In this document: piece after piece, positions 29,578 through 39,341 of the stretch | Position numbering within the stretch: position 1 is the first letter of the stretch | How the letters are laid out: every line of letters starts with the position of its first letter | NCBI RefSeq assembly: GCF_002263515.1 | Contig: NZ_CP022752.1 | Coordinates: 1,798,001-1,862,000 of the forward strand | Reading direction: 5' to 3' | DNA from: Actinopolyspora erythraea | GTDB taxonomy: Bacteria > Actinomycetota > Actinomycetes > Mycobacteriales > Pseudonocardiaceae | Length of the DNA stretch: 64,000 nucleotides | The notes under the pieces: model-generated | The model's database searches: none | The model's input: the letters and a program-made list of their open reading frames with translations, nothing else | What the model was told of the DNA's origin: nothing | Position numbers and translations under genes: made by a program

Positions 29578-29732
29578 TTCTCGTGCGGAACCCCCGCGTG
29601 CCGTGAACCGGACTTCCGCCCGCGCCGGGCCGGTTTCCGGCGTTCCCACGGTCATCGCGGTCGGGGGCTGTCGAGTGGAGCCGGAAGCCAGTAGAGTGCC
29701 GCACGCATGATCATCGATTGGTCACGGAGCGT

Positions 29733-30938
29733 GTGTTGGGCAGTGTCTACGTGGTCGGAACCTTCGACACCAAGGGCGACGAGCTCGGCTACGTGGCCGA
29801 ACTGCTTCGCGCGGACGGCTCCTCGGTGGTGACCGTGGACCTCGGCACCGCTCGCTCCGATACCACCACCGCCGCTTCGGTCTCCGCCGCATCCGTGGCC
29901 GAGCACCACCCGCACGGCGGCGAGGCCGTGTTCACCGGCGAACGTGGTTCGGCGGTCGCCGCCATGTCGGAGGCCTTTCAGCGGTTCCTGGGCACCCGCG
30001 ACGACATCGCCGGGATCGTAGGGATAGGGGGATCGGGAGCCACCGCCCTGGTCACGCCGGCGATGCGTTCCCTGCCCGTCGGAGTTCCCAAGTTCGTGGT
30101 CTCCACGGTCGCCTCCGGGGACGTCTCCGGTTACGTCGACGCCAGTGACATCGCCATGCTGCCCGCCGTGACCGACGTGGCCGGACTCAACCGGATCTCG
30201 CGACGGGTGCTGGCCAACGCCGCACACGCCCTGCACGGAGCCGTGAGCGCGCCCAGCCCGGTCGTGACCGACAAACCCGCCGTCGGTCTGTCCATGTTCG
30301 GCGTGACCACGCCGTGCGTCAGCGCCGTGGCGGAGGAACTCGCCGGAATGTACGACCCCCTGGTGTTCCACGCGACCGGCACCGGTGGTCGTGCCATGGA
30401 GAAGCTGGTCGACGACGGGTTGCTGCACGGTCTGCTGGACGTCACCACCACTGAGGTCTGCGATCTCCTCTCCGGCGGTGTGATGAGCGCGGGAAACGAG
30501 CGCCTCGACGCCCCTGCCAGGGCGGGGCTGCCGTACGTGGGTTCCTGCGGTGCGCTCGACATGGTCAACTTCGGCGCCAGGGACACCGTGCCGGAGCGGT
30601 ACCGGAACCGGCTGCTCTACGAGCACAACTCCCAGGTCACCCTGATGCGTACCACTCCGGAGGAATGCGAGGCCATCGGCCTGTTCCTGGCGGACAAGCT
30701 CAACGCCCTCCCCGGCCCCGTGCGGTTCCTGCTTCCCGAGGGAGGGGTGTCCGCGCTGGACGCCGTGGGCGAGCCCTTCCACGACCCGGAGGCGGACGGA
30801 GTGTTGTTCGACACACTCGAACGCAACGTGGTGCGGCACGAACGACGACGCCTGGTCCGAGTGCCGCACCACATCAACGACTCGCTGTTCGTACGGGCCC
30901 TGCTGGACGCGTTCTACGAGGTGATGAGTGATGAGTGA
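29733..30938 (+). CDS. UPF0261 / Tm-1-like ATP-binding domain protein
   Basis: 401 residues. The N-terminus [21 protein letters not shown] and the block [24 protein letters not shown] are the hallmarks of the Tm-1-like ATP-binding family, whose plant member is the N-terminal half of the tomato Tm-1 protein that inhibits tobamovirus replication. The bacterial function is not established. It overlaps the next gene by 8 nt, which encodes the partner TIM-barrel half. Start unsure: GTG at 29733 or TTG at 29736 (GGAG upstream), or TTG at 29718. Confidence 0.85.
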
Positions 30939-31803
30939 GCACGATCCGCACACGGGCTCGTCCGCCGGGCGGGCACCGAGCCGCGGCGATGTACTGCGGT
31001 CGCTGCGCGACAAGGTCGAGCGGGGTGTGCCGATCGTAGGCGGGGGTGCCGGTACGGGGCTGTCCGCCAAGTCGGAGGAGGCCGGTGGTATCGACCTCCT
31101 CGTGCTGTACAACTCGGGGCGTTACCGCATGGCCGGCCGGGGATCGTTGGCGGGGCTGCTCGCCTACGGAAACGCCAACGAGATCGTGCTGGAGATGGCA
31201 CGCGAGGTGCTGCCCGTGGTCCGGCACACCCCGGTGCTGGCAGGAGTGAACGGGACCGATCCGTTCATGATTCCGGAGAAATTCCTTGAACGACTGCGTG
31301 ATCTGGGATTCGTGGGAGTGCAGAACTTTCCCACAGTCGGCCTGATAGACGGGACTTTCCGGGCCAACCTCGAAGAGACCGGAATGAGTTACGATCTCGA
31401 GATTGAAATGATTCGTACCGCTCGGAAAATGGATCTGCTCACTACTCCCTACGTTTTCTCCGCGGACGAGGCCCGGGCCATGGCACGAGCCGGTGCCGAC
31501 GTGATCGTTTGTCACATGGGACTCACCACGGGTGGGAGTATCGGTGCCGAAACCGCCCGGGATCTCGATGACTGCGTGCGTTCGGTCGAGGAGTGGTCGA
31601 AAGCGGCGGCCGAAGTCCGCGACGACGTCCTGGTGCTCTGCCACGGCGGTCCGATAAGTGAACCGGAGGACATGGCCTACGTGCTTTCACGGACCACCCG
31701 TTGCCATGGTTTCTACGGGGCGAGCAGCATGGAGCGGCTGCCCACCGAACAGGCTGTCGCCGCTCGTACCACGGCTTTTCTGGAGCAGCGATTTTCGGGA
31801 TGA
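30931..31803 (+). CDS. Phosphoenolpyruvate hydrolase-like TIM-barrel protein
   Basis: 290 residues. Pattern [34 protein letters not shown], continuing with [19 protein letters not shown] and [13 protein letters not shown], is that of the PEP_hydrolase family (a TIM barrel), which forms the C-terminal half of plant Tm-1. ATG at 30931 lies inside the end of the upstream gene, with GAGGTG 7 nt before it, so the two products are made together and probably form a complex. Actual chemistry is unknown; the family name comes from similarity and not from a proven reaction. Confidence 0.85.
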
Positions 31804-32736: not shown

Positions 32737-33726
32737 GTGCCAAGCAGCTTCGTGCAGTCCGCAACAGATTCAGCAGGTTCCGAAGTCGGCGCCGAGCGCG
32801 TCGTCGTCACCGGAGGATCGGGGTTCGTGGGAAGAGCCGTGGTCCGGGCGTTCGCGCAGCGTGGCAACCCGGTGACGATCATCGACCGAGTGGCTCCCGA
32901 GGTGCCCGAGCAGTACCGTCACCTGGTCACGCACGTGGCCGGTGATCTGACCGATCCGGAGGTGCGGGAGGCGGGTGTCCCGGAGAACACCGCCGGGATC
33001 ATTCACCTTGCCGCCATCACCTCGGTGTTGCGTTCCATGGACAAGCCGGTGGAGACCTTCGCCAACAACGTGGAGGTCACCCAGGGGCTGCTCGAGTTGG
33101 CTCGGCAGCGTGGTGTCGGGCGCTTCGTGCTGGCCTCCACCAACGCGGTGGTCGGCGACATCGGATACGGGACGATCTCGGAGCGGCTGCCGCTGCACCC
33201 CTTGACGCCGTACGGCTCGACCAAGGCCGCCTGCGAGATGCTGCTGTCGGGTTACAGCGGTGCCTACGGGATCGCGACCACGGCGTTGCGCTTCACCAAC
33301 ATCTACGGTCCCGGCATGGGGCACAAGGACAGCTTCGTCCCCCGGTTGATGCGCGCCGCGCTGGCCGGTGAAGGGGTTGAGGTCTACGGCGACGGTTCGC
33401 AGAGCCGTGACTTCGTGCACATCGACGACGTGGTGCAGGCCGTCATGGCCTCCTGGGACAAGCAGTACAGCGGAACCGCGGTGATCGGTTCCGGCAGTTC
33501 CATCTCGGTGATGGAACTCATCGAGTCGGTCCGTACCGCCACGGGCAGGGAACTGCCGGTGACGCACGTGTCAGCCAAGAACGGTGAGATGCCCGCTGTG
33601 ATCGTCGAGATCGAGAAGGCCAGGCGCGAGCTGGGCTACACGCCCAATGTGCGGTTGACCGAGGGGCTGCGCACGGTGTGGGACGACTTCCGCGCCGCCG
33701 ACAGTGGGATGTCCGTGGCCCCATGA
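32737..33726 (+). CDS. NAD-dependent sugar-nucleotide epimerase/dehydratase
   Basis: 329 residues, extended SDR. The cofactor loop VTGGSGFVG is at ~24-32 after a 20-residue polar lead; the catalytic Tyr and Lys are in PYGSTKAACE; RFTNIYGPGMGH and GDGSQSRDFVHIDDVV are typical of UDP-glucose 4-epimerase-like enzymes. It would supply a UDP-hexose or uronic acid variant for the glycosyltransferases that follow. Its stop overlaps the next start (ATGA). Confidence 0.87.
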   Translation: MPSSFVQSATDSAGSEVGAERVVVTGGSGFVGRAVVRAFAQRGNPVTIIDRVAPEVPEQYRHLVTHVAGDLTDPEVREAGVPENTAGIIHLAAITSVLRSMDKPVETFANNVEVTQGLLELARQRGVGRFVLASTNAVVGDIGYGTISERLPLHPLTPYGSTKAACEMLLSGYSGAYGIATTALRFTNIYGPGMGHKDSFVPRLMRAALAGEGVEVYGDGSQSRDFVHIDDVVQAVMASWDKQYSGTAVIGSGSSISVMELIESVRTATGRELPVTHVSAKNGEMPAVIVEIEKARRELGYTPNVRLTEGLRTVWDDFRAADSGMSVAP

Positions 33727-35156
33727 CCGCTCGACTGTCGCGCGCGGTCCGGCAGCACTGGCTGCTGGCGCTGTTCCTGCTGGCCGGTGTTCTGCTGCGG
33801 CTCGTGGTGGAGATCGCCTACCAGCCGGCGCTGCTGTATATCGACTCCTTCCGCTACCTGCGGGACCTCGGGGTGTTCTTCCCCGGCAACATCAATCCGA
33901 TCGGCTACGAAGTGCTGCTGCTCGGACCGGTCCTGCTGGTCGGTGACCTGGGGCTCGTCGCGATAGTGCAGCACCTGCTGGGACTGGGGCTGGCCCTGGC
34001 CAGTTACTCCCTGCTGCTGCGCTACGGATGCCGGCGGTGGTTGGCCGCGCTCGCGGTGGCACCGGTGCTGTTGGACGCCTACCAGCTCCAGATCGAGCAC
34101 CTGATCATGTCAGACCTGCTGTTCCAGGTACTGCTGCTGCTCGCGATCATCCTGCTGACCTGGTGGGGAACCCCCGGACCCGGCGTGGCCCTGCTGGGGG
34201 GACTGGTGCTGGGCACTTCGGTGCTGGTCCGGTTGGTCGGACTCACCCTGGTGGTGCCCGCCGCCGTCTTCGTGCTGCTGGCGGCCGGGCTGCGCCCCAG
34301 GGACGGCTGGAAGCGGCGACTGAAATCGGCGACGGCACTGGTGGCCGGGTTCGTGTTCATGCTTTCCAGCTATGCCGGATATCACATGTACTGGACCGGC
34401 AAGCCCGCGCTCGGTGGGGCGACCGGCAGCGTGGTCTTCGGACGTACCGCGATGGTCGCCGACTGCGAACGACTCGAACTGACACCCGCCCAGCGGGTCG
34501 TCTGCCCTCCGGAACCAGTGGCCGAGCGAAAGCGCAAGGGCATCGACCACTACATCCACTGGTTTCGGCCCGAGATCGACACCGACGCCCTCCCGGAGGG
34601 GGTCAGCTATTCCGAGGCGCAGCACTCCCTGGCCTTCAACGTGCTGCGCAACCAGCCCCTGGAGGTGTTCGGCGGTGTGGTCCGGGACTTCATGAAGGGG
34701 TTCGCCCCGATGCGCACCCGTTCACCGGGTGACGTCCCGCTGGCGCGGTGGCAGTTCCAGACCGAGTACCCGCTCTACACCCCGGAGTGGGTCACGCTGG
34801 ACTGGCTGGAGTACTACGACGAGGGGCACTACTCCACCAACGAGCGTGCGGCGGGCTTCCTCCGCGCGTACCAACTGGGGGGAGGCTACACTCCGGGCAC
34901 CGTTCTGGGGCTGGCCCTGGTCCTCACCGTCGCGGCGATGCTGGGGGTGGGACGGGCTCGCCGGAGTGGACTCCGGGCCGTCTGCCTGCTTTCCGGCGGG
35001 GTGGGGACCGCGGTGCTGTTCACGGCGGCCGCGATGGAGTTCTCCTGGCGCTACCAATTACCCGCCCTGCTCCTGCTGCCGCTGGCGGGAGCGATGGGGA
35101 TCACGGCCATCACCGGCCGCCGACCTGATACGAAGGGTTCCACGACGAACCGGTAG
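33723..35156 (+). CDS. GT-C fold membrane glycosyltransferase (PMT/ArnT-like)
   Basis: 477 residues with about ten hydrophobic segments: ~11-32, five or six between 60 and 240, then a large extracytoplasmic domain (~250-400) and further segments to the C-terminus. An acidic residue in the first outside loop (YIDSFRYLRD, D41) matches the catalytic Asp of GT-C enzymes that use polyprenyl-phosphate sugars. It overlaps the epimerase stop by 4 nt and is followed 29 nt later by a GT2 gene. Likely the enzyme that transfers a lipid-carried sugar outside the membrane (inference). Confidence 0.8.
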   Translation: MTARLSRAVRQHWLLALFLLAGVLLRLVVEIAYQPALLYIDSFRYLRDLGVFFPGNINPIGYEVLLLGPVLLVGDLGLVAIVQHLLGLGLALASYSLLLRYGCRRWLAALAVAPVLLDAYQLQIEHLIMSDLLFQVLLLLAIILLTWWGTPGPGVALLGGLVLGTSVLVRLVGLTLVVPAAVFVLLAAGLRPRDGWKRRLKSATALVAGFVFMLSSYAGYHMYWTGKPALGGATGSVVFGRTAMVADCERLELTPAQRVVCPPEPVAERKRKGIDHYIHWFRPEIDTDALPEGVSYSEAQHSLAFNVLRNQPLEVFGGVVRDFMKGFAPMRTRSPGDVPLARWQFQTEYPLYTPEWVTLDWLEYYDEGHYSTNERAAGFLRAYQLGGGYTPGTVLGLALVLTVAAMLGVGRARRSGLRAVCLLSGGVGTAVLFTAAAMEFSWRYQLPALLLLPLAGAMGITAITGRRPDTKGSTTNR

Positions 35157-35185
35157 CCGAGATCACGGCACGAATGGAGCATGAG

Positions 35186-36031
35186 ATGCCGACGACCTTT
35201 CCCGACGAGGTCGATGAAGCCGCACTGGCCGACTACGCCGCGCGTTACGGTGATCACCGGTTCGCCCCGGTGGTGGTGTTGATCGCCGCCTACAACGAGG
35301 GGGACGCGATCCCCGCGGTGCTCGAGGGGATCCCGAACACGAGCTGTGACCTGAACGTGGACACGCTGGTGGTCGTCGACGGTGCCTCCGACGACACCGC
35401 CGACGTCGCCGTGCGGTACGGCGCCTACACCTGTGTGGCCCCGACCAACCGCGGTCAGGGGGCGGCGCTGCGGCTCGGTTACCGGTTGGCGGCCGAGCGC
35501 GGTGCGCGATACGTGGTCACCACCGACGCGGACGGGCAGTACGAGATCGACGAGCTTCCCCGGTTATTGCGTCCGATTCTCGACGACGAGGCCGACTTCG
35601 TCACCGGGTCGCGCAGGTTGGGGAGCAGCGAGAACCCCCAGCTGCTGCGCCGGGTCGGTACCTATGTGTTCGCCTGGCTGGTCAGCGTGATGACCGGTCA
35701 GCGCATCACCGACACCTCGTTCGGCTTCCGTGCCATGCGGGTCGAGGTCGCGAACTCGGTTCGGCTGGAGCAGCAGCAGTACCAGTCCTCCGAGCTGCTG
35801 GTCGGTGTGCTGGCGCGTGGCTACCGCGTTCGCGAGCGGGCCATGACGATGCGTCAACGTGTGGCGGGTGTCAGCAAGAAGGGCAACAACGTGCTCTACG
35901 GCTACCGCTACAGCAGGGTGGTGCTCGGGACCTGGCTGCGCGAACGGCGTGCCCAGCGGCTGGCTGGGGCGAACGGGGCCTCCACGGCGGACGAGCAGGT
36001 CAGCGAACCTGCTCGTGCCGCCGGGGAGTAG
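35186..36031 (+). CDS. GT2 glycosyltransferase, polyprenyl-phosphate hexose synthase type (GtrB/DPM1-like)
   Basis: 281 residues. The GT-A fold motifs VLIAAYNEGDAIPAVLEGI, VVVDGASDDTADV and the metal-binding TTDADGQYEIDEL are clear; GSRRLGSSENP and TSFGFRAM follow. It lacks the two C-terminal membrane helices of GtrB and resembles dolichol-phosphate-mannose-synthase catalytic domains. I chose the ATG at 35186 (GGAG 6 nt upstream) rather than the one at 35174. Its last 32 nt overlap the convergent gtrA gene. Likely loads a sugar onto undecaprenyl phosphate. Confidence 0.87.
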   Translation: MPTTFPDEVDEAALADYAARYGDHRFAPVVVLIAAYNEGDAIPAVLEGIPNTSCDLNVDTLVVVDGASDDTADVAVRYGAYTCVAPTNRGQGAALRLGYRLAAERGARYVVTTDADGQYEIDELPRLLRPILDDEADFVTGSRRLGSSENPQLLRRVGTYVFAWLVSVMTGQRITDTSFGFRAMRVEVANSVRLEQQQYQSSELLVGVLARGYRVRERAMTMRQRVAGVSKKGNNVLYGYRYSRVVLGTWLRERRAQRLAGANGASTADEQVSEPARAAGE

Positions 36032-36476
36032 AGAAGACCAAGCGGTCCATCAGGAAGAACTTGAGCACGAACATCAGCAGGTAGGTGCCGAGATAGGAAC
36101 CCCAGACCAGAAGCACCCTCCGGAATTCGGAAGCGGCGAAGAGGTTGTGGGCGAGTTCCTCGGTGTAATTGGTGGCGACCGCCGCGAGCAGGAAGGTCGT
36201 CACCGACACCACCGCGAAGCGTGCCAGTTCGCCGCGCAGCTGGTGCCGTCCAGTGCTTCCCCAGTTCCTGCGGTTGAGGAAGAAGTTGGGGACGGCCCCG
36301 GCCAGCCACCCCAGCACGGTGGCCAGGGTCGAGGCCGAGCTGATCCAGTAGGACACCACGAACACGAGCTGACTGCTCACGGTCGCCAGCGCCGAGACCG
36401 CGGCGAAACCACGCAGCAGTCTCCAGTACCGGCTGGTGCCACGGTGCTCGGAAGGCGGCTCCGGGGTGGCGGACAC
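36000..36476 (-). CDS. GtrA family membrane protein
   Basis: 158 residues with four predicted membrane helices and the family core LGWLAGAVPNFFLNRRNWGST. GtrA proteins flip undecaprenyl-phosphate-linked sugars across the membrane. It converges on and overlaps the GT2 gene by 32 nt. Position beside a GtrB-like transferase and a GT-C enzyme makes a three-part sugar relay: load, flip, transfer. Confidence 0.88.
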   Translation of the reverse strand: MSATPEPPSEHRGTSRYWRLLRGFAAVSALATVSSQLVFVVSYWISSASTLATVLGWLAGAVPNFFLNRRNWGSTGRHQLRGELARFAVVSVTTFLLAAVATNYTEELAHNLFAASEFRRVLLVWGSYLGTYLLMFVLKFFLMDRLVFSTPRRHEQVR

Positions 36477-36798
36477 GGTTCGCTTCCCTCCGCTGGAAGA
36501 GTGGTTGCAGAAACGAGCTCCACGAACTGTACGGAAACCGCTCCGTCATCCGCCCGCCGGATGAGAACATGCCGTTCGTGGAGGTGAGGTTGGCTGTTGC
36601 GGCGCAGCAGTTAGCCTTTCACATTGAACACGATAGTGTGGGGAGGGCTTGAGTCGCGCATGTCGTGTTCGATGAATTACATTCTGTGGATACCCACAAG
36701 GTACGGGTGTCGCGGAACGAACCTGACAGGTGGCAGCCGGGGTGTCGTCACGAACGAACACCGCTGGGTGCCGACATTTGTGTAGAGGAGAAGAAGGC
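36477..36798. promoter_or_regulatory. Divergent control region of gtrA and sqdB
   Basis: 322 nt, less GC-rich than its surroundings. Candidate sqdB promoter: TTAGCC (36611-36616), 17-nt spacer, TAGTGT (36634-36639). Within the spacer begins ACATTGAACACGATAGTGT (36621-36639), which recurs almost unchanged upstream of the M23 peptidase gene. The predicted transcript would have a ~150-nt leader. AGAGGAG (36784-36790) is the sqdB ribosome binding site. Confidence 0.55.
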
Positions 36799-37968
36799 GT
36801 GCGAATCCTCGTCCTGGGTGGGGACGGCTATCTCGGTTGGCCGACCGCTCTGCATCTGTCCGACTGCGGTCACGACGTGGCCGTGGCAGACAACTTCGCC
36901 CGTAGGGCCTACGACCACGAGATGGGCGTGCGCAGCCTGGTTCCGATGGAACCGCTGCAGGTTCGAGTCGATGCCTGGCGGGAGGTTTCCGGCCAGGAGA
37001 TCAAGACGTACTACGGTGACCTCGTCGACGCCGAGTTCACCGTCGAGATGATCCGGGACTTCCGTCCGGACACCATCGTGCACTTCGCCGAACAGCGGGC
37101 CGCCCCCTACTCGATGATCGACCGCAAGCACGCGGTCTACACGCAGCAGAACAACGTGGTCGGCAACCTCAACGTGCTGTTCGCGATCCAGGAGATCGAC
37201 CCGGAGATTCACCTGGTCAAGCTCGGGACCATGGGTGAGTACGGCACTCCCAACATCGATATCGAAGAGGGGTGGCTGGAGGTCACCCACAAGGGTCGTA
37301 CCGACCGCATGCTCTACCCGAAGAAGCCCGGCTCCTTCTACCACCTCAGCAAGGTGCACGACAGCCACAACATCGAGTTCGCCTGTCGTATCTGGGGCCT
37401 GCGCGCCACCGACCTCAACCAGGGTGTCGTGTACGGTCAGGAGACGCCGCAGACCGTGCGCGACCCGAGGCTGGCCACTCGGTTCGACTACGACGCCATC
37501 TTCGGCACGGTGCTCAACCGCTTCGTGATCCAGGCCGTGCTCGGCCACCCCCTCACGGTCTACGGCACCGGCAGCCAGACGCGTGGTGTCATCGACATCA
37601 GAGACACCGTGGAGTGCATCCGTCTGGCCTCGGAGAACCCCGCCGACAAGGGCGAGTTCCGTGTTTTCAACCAGATGACGGAGAGCTTCTCGGTCGAGGA
37701 GATCGCCAAGACGGTCGCCAACAACTACCACGGCACCGTCGAGGTGGAGTACCTCGACAACCCGCGTGTGGAGCAGGACCACCACTACTACAACGTGGTA
37801 CACACGGGTCTCGTGGAGCTGGGACTGGATCCGCACCTGCTGTCCAACACCCTGATCAACTCGTTGTTCGGTGTCGCCGAGCAGTTCAAGGACCGGGTCG
37901 ACCTGTCCGCCATGCGTCCCACCGTCGAGTGGCGTACGGCCTCCAGCCCGCTCCGCTCGCAGAACTGA
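36799..37968 (+). CDS. sqdB: UDP-sulfoquinovose synthase
   Basis: Makes UDP-sulfoquinovose from UDP-glucose and sulfite, the precursor of sulfolipids and other sulfoquinovose glycans. 389 residues, nearly colinear with plant SQD1. The cofactor loop GGDGYLG is at 7-13, and the catalytic T144 (KLGTMGEYGTPNIDIEEG), Y181 and K185 (FYHLSKVHDSHN) fall within one residue of the Arabidopsis numbering. HFAEQRAAPYSMIDR, LNQGVVYG and GQTRG-like GSQTRGVIDIRDTV complete the match. GTG at 36799 with AGAGGAG 8 nt upstream. No SqdX/SqdD sulfolipid transferase is next to it; the neighbours are a GtrA/GT2/GT-C set. Confidence 0.93.
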   Translation: MRILVLGGDGYLGWPTALHLSDCGHDVAVADNFARRAYDHEMGVRSLVPMEPLQVRVDAWREVSGQEIKTYYGDLVDAEFTVEMIRDFRPDTIVHFAEQRAAPYSMIDRKHAVYTQQNNVVGNLNVLFAIQEIDPEIHLVKLGTMGEYGTPNIDIEEGWLEVTHKGRTDRMLYPKKPGSFYHLSKVHDSHNIEFACRIWGLRATDLNQGVVYGQETPQTVRDPRLATRFDYDAIFGTVLNRFVIQAVLGHPLTVYGTGSQTRGVIDIRDTVECIRLASENPADKGEFRVFNQMTESFSVEEIAKTVANNYHGTVEVEYLDNPRVEQDHHYYNVVHTGLVELGLDPHLLSNTLINSLFGVAEQFKDRVDLSAMRPTVEWRTASSPLRSQN

Positions 37969-38344: not shown

Positions 38345-38818
38345 CTACCGGCGGGATCGGGTGGCGCTGGCCGCCACTCCGGCCGTCAGCGTCCCGATGG
38401 CCAGACCGATCAGCGCGTTCAGCGCGCAGCTGGCGAGCTGTGTTTCCAGCGAGGCCGCCGTGGTGAAGGGGCGTACCGCCACGGCGACGGTGACCAGCGT
38501 GACTATCCAGCCGAAGAAGGTGATCGGTCGCGGTGTGCTCACCAGCAGCAGGTGTAGCAGAGCTGTGGCCAGCAGCGCCGCGAGCGCGGCGAGCAGGCAC
38601 AACCGGACCGTGCTGACGTCGCCGAGCGTCCCGTAACGGGAGGGGCCCAGCACGGGGATCCGCAGCACGCCCCGCAGAATCACCACTCCCACGAGCGCGA
38701 TGAGCGCCGAGACCAGCGCGGTGGCGGCTCCACCGGTCCACAGTTGCCGTGTGTTGAGCCCGTCGCGACCGTTCTCGTCGCGACCGCCGAGCTGTCGGGT
38801 GTGGTCGTCCTCTGGCAC
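38345..38818 (-). CDS. Small four-helix membrane protein, DUF6069-like
   Basis: 157 residues: a polar N-terminus of ~35 residues, then four hydrophobic segments (about 37-60, 78-98, 104-122, 132-150). Two helices flank a VRPFTTAASLETQLAS motif, which I associate with the actinobacterial DUF6069 family. GTG at 38818 with GGGAGG 5 nt upstream; the longer open frame upstream is arginine-rich and unlikely to be translated. Function unknown. Confidence 0.7.
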   Translation of the reverse strand: MPEDDHTRQLGGRDENGRDGLNTRQLWTGGAATALVSALIALVGVVILRGVLRIPVLGPSRYGTLGDVSTVRLCLLAALAALLATALLHLLLVSTPRPITFFGWIVTLVTVAVAVRPFTTAASLETQLASCALNALIGLAIGTLTAGVAASATRSRR

Positions 38819-39341
38819 GGCAACCTCCCACGGGAGCGGCTGTCCCCCGACCAGGTTTGAGGACCGGCGACGAGTACGCAACGCCCGGATCGCCACATCA
38901 CTCCGAAGAGTGCCCCTCGGGCGGTCGGAGCGGCCGGGACGGAGCAGCGGGATTCGACGCGCAGCGTGTCCGAACGGGTTTTCTCCGTCGTTACGGATAA
39001 CTACTCGCGAATGGGCTCGTGTCGGAGTGTCGGACATCACTCCGAAAGGCCCGCGTCGTGCGGATGATCTTTTTCGGTCGAATTCGATCAATGAGAAACC
39101 GGGCTACATCAGCGGTTTCCGCGATCTTTTCCAGATCGTTTTTTCTTTCGTGTTCGATCTTCCTCCTGCGATGGAAACTGATCTCCGAGTGCCCGTCTGC
39201 CTCGTTTTGACCAGCCGAATCGACGAAGATGATGTTCGGGTGGTTCCGGTGTTTCCTCGCGGTTGACTCCGGTGGTCGCTCGGATGGGGCGAACTGGGGA
39301 AGCCAAGTAGTCGTTTGGTTGAACCGTTATCGGACGGTGAT

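Follow-up and report, generated by a model that had tools for sequence, protein, structure and literature searches.

A predicted sulfoquinovose envelope-decoration cassette in Actinopolyspora erythraea and related Actinomycetota

Introduction

Sulfoquinovose is regarded as the head group of a lipid found in photosynthetic membranes; its presence in archaeal N-glycans counts as an exception. Here we describe a five-gene locus in a 64,000-nucleotide stretch (the window, G000:C1:1798001-1862000) of the single-contig, 5.24 Mb genome of Actinopolyspora erythraea. It encodes a UDP-sulfoquinovose synthase (SqdB), a nucleotide-sugar epimerase (EPI), a GT-C membrane glycosyltransferase, a GT2 glycosyltransferase and a GtrA family membrane protein. 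Based on the genes and their distribution, we believe that the five are probably a cassette that decorates the envelope with sulfoquinovose. The SqdB/SqdX sulfolipid pathway of cyanobacteria, plants and some Bacillota shares with it the predicted nucleotide sugar and a homologous first enzyme; in contrast, the cassette has no SqdX-like neighbour and its carrier would be a polyprenyl.

The closest described system is the galactosamine decoration of arabinogalactan, which uses the epimerase Rv3634c, the GT2 enzyme PpgS (Rv3631) with the membrane helper Rv3632, and the outside transferase Rv3779 (PMC9671496 and the accessible part of PMC5389812). As found in mycobacteria and corynebacteria, this system has the same functional parts as the cassette, namely a UDP-sugar 4-epimerase, a polyprenyl-phosphate-sugar GT2, a small membrane helper and an outside transferase. 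We take Rv3779 to be a GT-C enzyme and Rv3632 to be GtrA-like. The cassette differs in adding a co-distributed UDP-sulfoquinovose synthase, in having GT-C and GT2 as one protein in 26 of the 38 loci that have the GT-C, in a GT2 far under the PpgS equivalog cut-off (88.0 of 370 bits), and in its occurrence in Kribbella, Nonomuraea and Actinomadura, genera not known to make arabinogalactan. With that score we do not count the window GT2 as a PpgS member, even though the cassette would work like the PpgS system. The GtrA/GtrB/Gtr(type) serotype glucosylation systems follow the same logic of GT2, GtrA and membrane transferase, with a different donor.

The Agl3-dependent pathway of Sulfolobus acidocaldarius likewise uses UDP-sulfoquinovose to build a surface glycan instead of a lipid (accessible part of PMC4388408); that system differs in being an archaeal N-glycan. 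The original prediction, made from the letters of the window, had drawn its parallel with these S-layer glycans, whose acceptor is protein, but the mycobacterial and corynebacterial galactosamine decoration is the closer one. Saccharopolyspora erythraea SACE_5690 already appears in a tree of UDP-sulfoquinovose synthases, and no actinobacterial pathway is described in that part of the paper (PMC4388408). Neither a polyprenyl-dependent sulfoquinovose pathway of bacteria nor an actinobacterial wall containing sulfoquinovose appeared among the matches listed from the CC-licensed PMC literature.

Results and discussion

All five reading frames are open (window 32737-37968), and each is of the enzyme type that had been proposed, so the claim that SqdB, an epimerase, a GT-C, a GT2 and a GtrA occur at one locus is borne out. 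The description of the synthase as nearly textbook, with the catalytic Thr, Tyr and Lys of plant SQD1, also held: the window SqdB aligns with Arabidopsis SQD1 (1qrr) over residues 2-382 of 389 (E 3.6e-159), which is full-length homology, and T144, Y181 and K185 (the catalytic Thr and the Tyr-x3-Lys) align with those of SQD1 and are invariant in 12/12 aligned SqdB homologues. The accessible part of PMC4388408 names these catalytic residues for UDP-sulfoquinovose synthases. Judged by resemblance of motifs, H95, R100, M145, E147 and Y148 of the window SqdB (P0005) are candidate counterparts of His95, Arg101, Met145, Glu147 and Tyr148, which are important in Agl3; E147 is not conserved in the alphaproteobacterial-type (alpha-type) SqdB homologues. 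The protein, 97% identical to its Actinopolyspora mzabensis counterpart, is thus predicted to be a UDP-sulfoquinovose synthase with UDP-glucose and sulfite as substrates. Its score on NCBIfam NF041015 is 464 bits, below the curated cut-off of 575, which is a naming threshold and not an enzyme property; the Alicyclobacillus and Halobacillus SqdBs that adjoin SqdX-like GT4 enzymes are likewise under it (484 and 491 bits). At 347-491 bits, the SqdBs that we scanned from Alicyclobacillus, Halobacillus, Amycolatopsis, Actinopolyspora, G080 and the alpha type are all missed by this cut-off.

The distribution of GT2 and EPI follows that of sqdB. Among 100 related genomes at the order level (the window's own included, 10 of them from its genus), SqdB (E<=1e-60) was found in 34, GT-C (E<=1e-5) in 37, GT2 (E<=1e-25) in 33 and EPI (E<=1e-60) in 31. 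GT2 is present in 33/34 of the genomes with SqdB and in 0/66 of those without it, and EPI in 31/34 (not in G070, G080 and G083) and 0/66, respectively. The GT-C is in 33/34 of the SqdB genomes versus 4/66 of the others, with just 34-36% identity in those four. Counted by genus, GT2 occurs in 23/24 SqdB genera versus 0/48 others. The sole SqdB genome without GT2, G080, has an SqdX-like GT4 adjoining sqdB.

Gene neighbourhoods agree with this distribution. All five genes are on the stretch in 21 of the 27 SqdB regions that we examined, out of 34 (the own region, those of four congeners, G020 and G056 were left out), and G021 carries the cassette (L042). The cassette is kept where the mapped flanks are absent (L044-L053) and where its order or orientation is altered (L049, L053 and L058; L273-L276), and rearranged but retained neighbourhoods are found in loci of six NCBI families. 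Among the best 80 of 586 confirmed loci, cassette genes lie near sqdB in Amycolatopsis, Saccharomonospora, Kribbella, Nonomuraea, Actinomadura and several metagenome-assembled genomes (MAGs). When 394 genomes were sampled across the class, SqdB (E<=1e-60) was found in 21, and in 12 of these (the own genome included; GtrA only in G042) a cassette gene lies within ~1.5 kb of sqdB. The expected linkage of sqdB to GT2, GtrA and GT-C is therefore conserved, as judged from co-distribution, kept neighbourhoods, fusion and an apparent replacement of sqdB in place; its loss in relatives, which had been set beforehand as an outcome speaking against it, did not occur.

The sulfolipid route and SqdX-like genes

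The window, the 27 regions and the 80 named loci make up a set of 108 SqdB loci, not all independent. With EPI counted at 140 bits or more and an SqdX-like GT4 at 200 bits or more, 47 loci have EPI and GT2, 13 have an SqdX-like neighbour and none has both; at this threshold all 47/47 EPI+GT2 loci are free of SqdX-like neighbours, and weak GT4 matches of 57-71 bits are present in L092, L094 and L127. The 13 SqdX-like loci are from Alicyclobacillus (2), Halobacillus (2), Salinicoccus (3), two Chloroflexota MAGs, three other MAGs and G080. Our putative SqdX queries, P0006 and P0007, are the GT4s adjoining SqdB in Alicyclobacillus and Halobacillus (Pfam was run for P0006 only). No SqdX model is among their NCBIfam matches, the best being GlcN_PG_synth below its cut-off; the SqdX name comes from context and a sequence motif.

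It had also been proposed to look for SqdX-like transferases elsewhere in the genome. None lies beside the window sqdB, and the best match in the own genome is a GT4 with 29% identity (94 bits); other GT4s may still have this role. An SqdD-like GT8 query gave no match in a search that had no positive control. Stronger GT4 matches, mostly of 31-38% identity, are not confined to genomes with SqdB, and we discounted them as other GT4s, presumably MgtA-like. On plasmids, P0006 matched two GT4s (33-34% identity), and no control SqdX was obtained. We rejected the plain SqdX sulfolipid pathway because no SqdX-like gene is near sqdB and no SqdD-like match was found, although an SqdX-like gene may lie elsewhere in the genome. 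A transferase of an unrecognised kind might still carry sulfoquinovose from the UDP-sugar to diacylglycerol, with GT2, GtrA and GT-C serving something else. Sulfolipid synthesis is the best-known role of SqdB, GT4s are abundant (75/100 of the related genomes match P0006 at E<=1e-20) and SqdX-like neighbours of sqdB exist in other phyla; B. coahuilensis, with sqd1/sqdX, is stated to have sulfolipids, with data not shown in that paper (accessible part of PMC4744853). However, the co-distribution of GT2 and EPI with SqdB, the complete separation of EPI+GT2 loci from those with an SqdX-like neighbour and the poor matches in the own genome make this sulfolipid alternative quite unlikely.

Apparent change of synthase lineage at a conserved locus

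Six genomes share the order GCS-EPI-[GT-C::GT2]-GtrA-sqdB-sepH-serC, five of them also with TetR before it (none was matched in L046); the flanking genes GCS, sepH, serC and TetR are what we take them to be from sequence resemblance. In the EPI+GT2 tree, these six genomes and L096 form one clade (100/100), which contains L057 and L058. The SqdBs of these two are only 43% identical to that of their sister L051, and in the SqdB tree (midpoint root) a branch with full support separates them and three other rows from the remaining 104, among which is plant SQD1. The L057 SqdB is 64% identical to a Loktanella SqdB that adjoins a GT8 and an oxidoreductase, an arrangement resembling sqdBDC of R. sphaeroides, and in L058 sqdB is also inverted. 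It seems that sqdB was replaced in place in both genomes by a divergent alphaproteobacterial-type synthase while the transferases were retained. Because the cassette would have swapped its synthase lineage yet kept its transferases, we consider this the strongest argument for UDP-sulfoquinovose as the shared currency. Both lineages are also found beside SqdX-like genes (SQD1 type in L206; alpha type in L207, L209 and L215).

Several observations weigh against the cassette as we read it. G070 and G083 have GT2 and GT-C, but no EPI was found in them at the threshold; in G011 and G027, sqdB is unlinked from the remaining cassette genes, which are present; and in the Nonomuraea and Actinomadura loci (L093, L097, L098 and L110) the cassette GT-C is not nearby, with a methyltransferase and a GtrA-like frame, judged by eye, between sqdB and GT2. 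Of the 108 loci, 48 are in neither context, some of them at contig ends, and of the 21 class-wide SqdB genomes, an SqdX-like gene adjoins sqdB in 4, whereas in 5 no gene of either kind lies within ~1.5 kb of it. Fisher significance is overstated, as the related genomes are not independent and the candidates scored per genome were limited. The GT-C profile (E<=1e-30) matches 66/394 genomes class-wide, 9/21 with SqdB versus 57/373 without, so the GT-C family is broader than the SqdB-linked system. We rejected the profile as too broad for a class-wide marker, and our class-level statements therefore rest on gene neighbours. Finally, sulfoquinovose in these envelopes and the donor of GT2 are predictions from the genes.

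The transferases and their fusion

The window GT-C protein has no Pfam match of its own, its sequence (P0002) matched none of the solved-structure sequences, and Foldseek alone gave no match for its predicted model at E<=0.001. With VIA-align, which re-aligns Foldseek candidates only, the model resembles GT-C enzymes, supporting a GT-C fold, and a fused orthologue clears PF13231 PMT_2 (30.4 vs a cut-off of 26.1). The acidic residue D42 is present in 15/15 aligned sequences and, because it follows the first helices in the model, would lie in the first extracytoplasmic loop. Arabinosyltransferases and PimE are among the structural matches. This bears on protein O-glycosylation, a sub-case of envelope decoration and the one nearest to the S-layer parallel, in which a PMT-like GT-C would put the sulfo-sugar onto secreted proteins: likeness of fold does not reveal the acceptor, arabinosyltransferases and PimE match too, and we judge it unlikely.

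The window GT2 is of the polyprenyl-phosphate sugar synthase type, under every equivalog cut-off, and the GtrA protein matches GtrA_DPMS_TM at 34.5 (cut-off 26.1). Where GT-C and GT2 are fused they form one uninterrupted frame of 724-936 aa, and in the Amycolatopsis circi protein Pfam finds both PMT_2 and Glycos_transf_2. In the seven loci from Actinopolyspora, the window's genus, the two are separate; this split looks secondary because, on the EPI+GT2 tree, the six loci closest to them have the fused form. Several GT-C paralogues are clustered in the SqdB-bearing genomes G109 and G387 (L272 2708-9041; L274 4724-8691).

The epimerase and the proposed mechanism

The closest solved relative of EPI is MoeE5, a UDP-glucuronate 4-epimerase. 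A Thr-Ser-Ser carboxylate cradle and Arg185 are features of such enzymes (MoeE5 and BcUGAepi; accessible parts of PMC7984243 and PMC12338863). As mapped by motif, the cradle position in EPI is T135-N136-A137 (45, 45 and 46 of 47 sequences), and His196 (40/47), which aligns with the Arg of MoeE5, is followed by Lys197 (47/47). With both features absent, we rejected EPI as a UDP-glucuronate 4-epimerase. A tentative possibility is that EPI is a UDP-sulfoquinovose 4-epimerase, whose product, UDP-6-deoxy-6-sulfo-galactose, would supply the sugar put on the envelope by the GT2/GT-C pair; we know of no system with this nucleotide sugar. We entertain this because SqdB uses UDP-glucose, so that an epimerase upstream of it is unneeded, because the epimerase of the galactosamine template feeds the equivalent GT2, and because MoeE5 acts on a C6-anionic sugar, yet in EPI the cradle is altered and an invariant Lys adjoins the residue aligned with the MoeE5 Arg.

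Alternatively, the cassette could add an EPI-made sugar, such as a galacto sugar, beside sulfoquinovose in one polymer, with a GT2 that does not use sulfoquinovose. Asn188 of EPI is GalE-like (an equivalence by motif) and the sugar specificity of GT2 is a prediction, but such an arrangement needs another UDP-sulfoquinovose transferase, of which we saw no conserved candidate in the clustered loci, and the other-lineage synthase at the same locus suggests that the set needs the product of the synthase. We regard it as very unlikely.

For the sulfoquinovose cassette, we propose that SqdB combines UDP-glucose with sulfite to give UDP-sulfoquinovose, as its homology and residues suggest, and that GT2 would move the sulfo-sugar onto polyprenyl phosphate at the cytoplasmic side, either as it is or once EPI has inverted it at C4. 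GtrA may anchor GT2 and/or help present the lipid-linked sugar outside, where the GT-C, often the same polypeptide as GT2, would transfer it to an acceptor outside the cytoplasm, which could be a wall polymer, a lipoglycan or a protein. The system follows from the galactosamine template if its sugar is exchanged for an SqdB-supplied sulfo-sugar. What we observed is the types of the parts, a GT-C-like fold, order-level co-distribution, fusion, no SqdX-like overlap at the examined loci and the change of synthase lineage. Together with the kept neighbourhoods, this gene logic supports the sulfoquinovose-bearing envelope glycan of the original prediction, whose chemistry is a proposal; a protein acceptor, as in the S-layer parallel, is one candidate among others.

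Layout and neighbouring genes

Table 1. Coordinates of the cassette features in the window.
Feature	Position	Strand	Basis or remark
EPI, extended-SDR nucleotide-sugar epimerase	32737-33726	+	stop overlaps start of GT-C gene
GT-C membrane glycosyltransferase	33723-35156	+	model fold, fused orthologues
GT2, polyprenyl-phosphate sugar synthase type	35174-36031	+	Pfam/NCBIfam profiles
GtrA/DPMS-TM family membrane protein	36000-36476	-	candidate flippase or membrane partner of GT2
sqdB, predicted UDP-sulfoquinovose synthase, SQD1 lineage	36799-37968	+	homology, catalytic residues
intergenic space gtrA/sqdB	36477-36798	.	322 bp, between divergent genes

The gtrA gene is on the strand opposite to the other cassette genes, overlapping the 3' tail of GT2 and divergent from sqdB. 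The space between gtrA and sqdB presumably carries the promoters of both; a promoter and terminator scan yielded nothing, including no sigma-70-type match in this space. Upstream of the cassette, UPF0261 and PEP_hydrolase-like genes (window 29718-31803) keep their position in Actinopolyspora and near relatives. Downstream of sqdB, a minus-strand frame (window 38345-39091) has a weak DUF6069 match, and a DUF6069 protein is also near sqdB on a Rhodococcus plasmid (L193).

A class I S-adenosylmethionine-dependent methyltransferase lies beside or near sqdB in several families (L041, L049, L053, L055, L093, L095, L097, L098, L099, L110 and L274-L276; checked with Pfam in L110 only) and could methylate the sulfo-sugar. 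On the Rhodococcus qingshengii plasmid (L193 9001-13998), an alpha-type SqdB adjoins a protein with a sub-threshold BcsB match and a processive-synthase-type GT2. A SulP transporter and an alkylsulfatase accompany them, and this may be one more way of using UDP-sulfoquinovose without SqdX. On a Pseudonocardia autotrophica plasmid (L192 7663-10149), an SqdB of 71% identity is beside a different GT2, MurJ and a cysteine synthase, and no cassette gene was matched in that stretch.

Implications

If our reading is correct, bacteria would have a second use for sulfoquinovose, by way of a polyprenyl-dependent route in Actinomycetota, and Gram-positive envelopes would gain a permanent strong-acid charge without phosphate. 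The cassette is present in cultured genera such as Amycolatopsis and Kribbella. A decoration of arabinogalactan is required by a corynephage (PMC9671496), and the sulfo-sugar could likewise be a phage receptor. The cassette could also be a further source of sulfonate for sulfoglycolytic bacteria.

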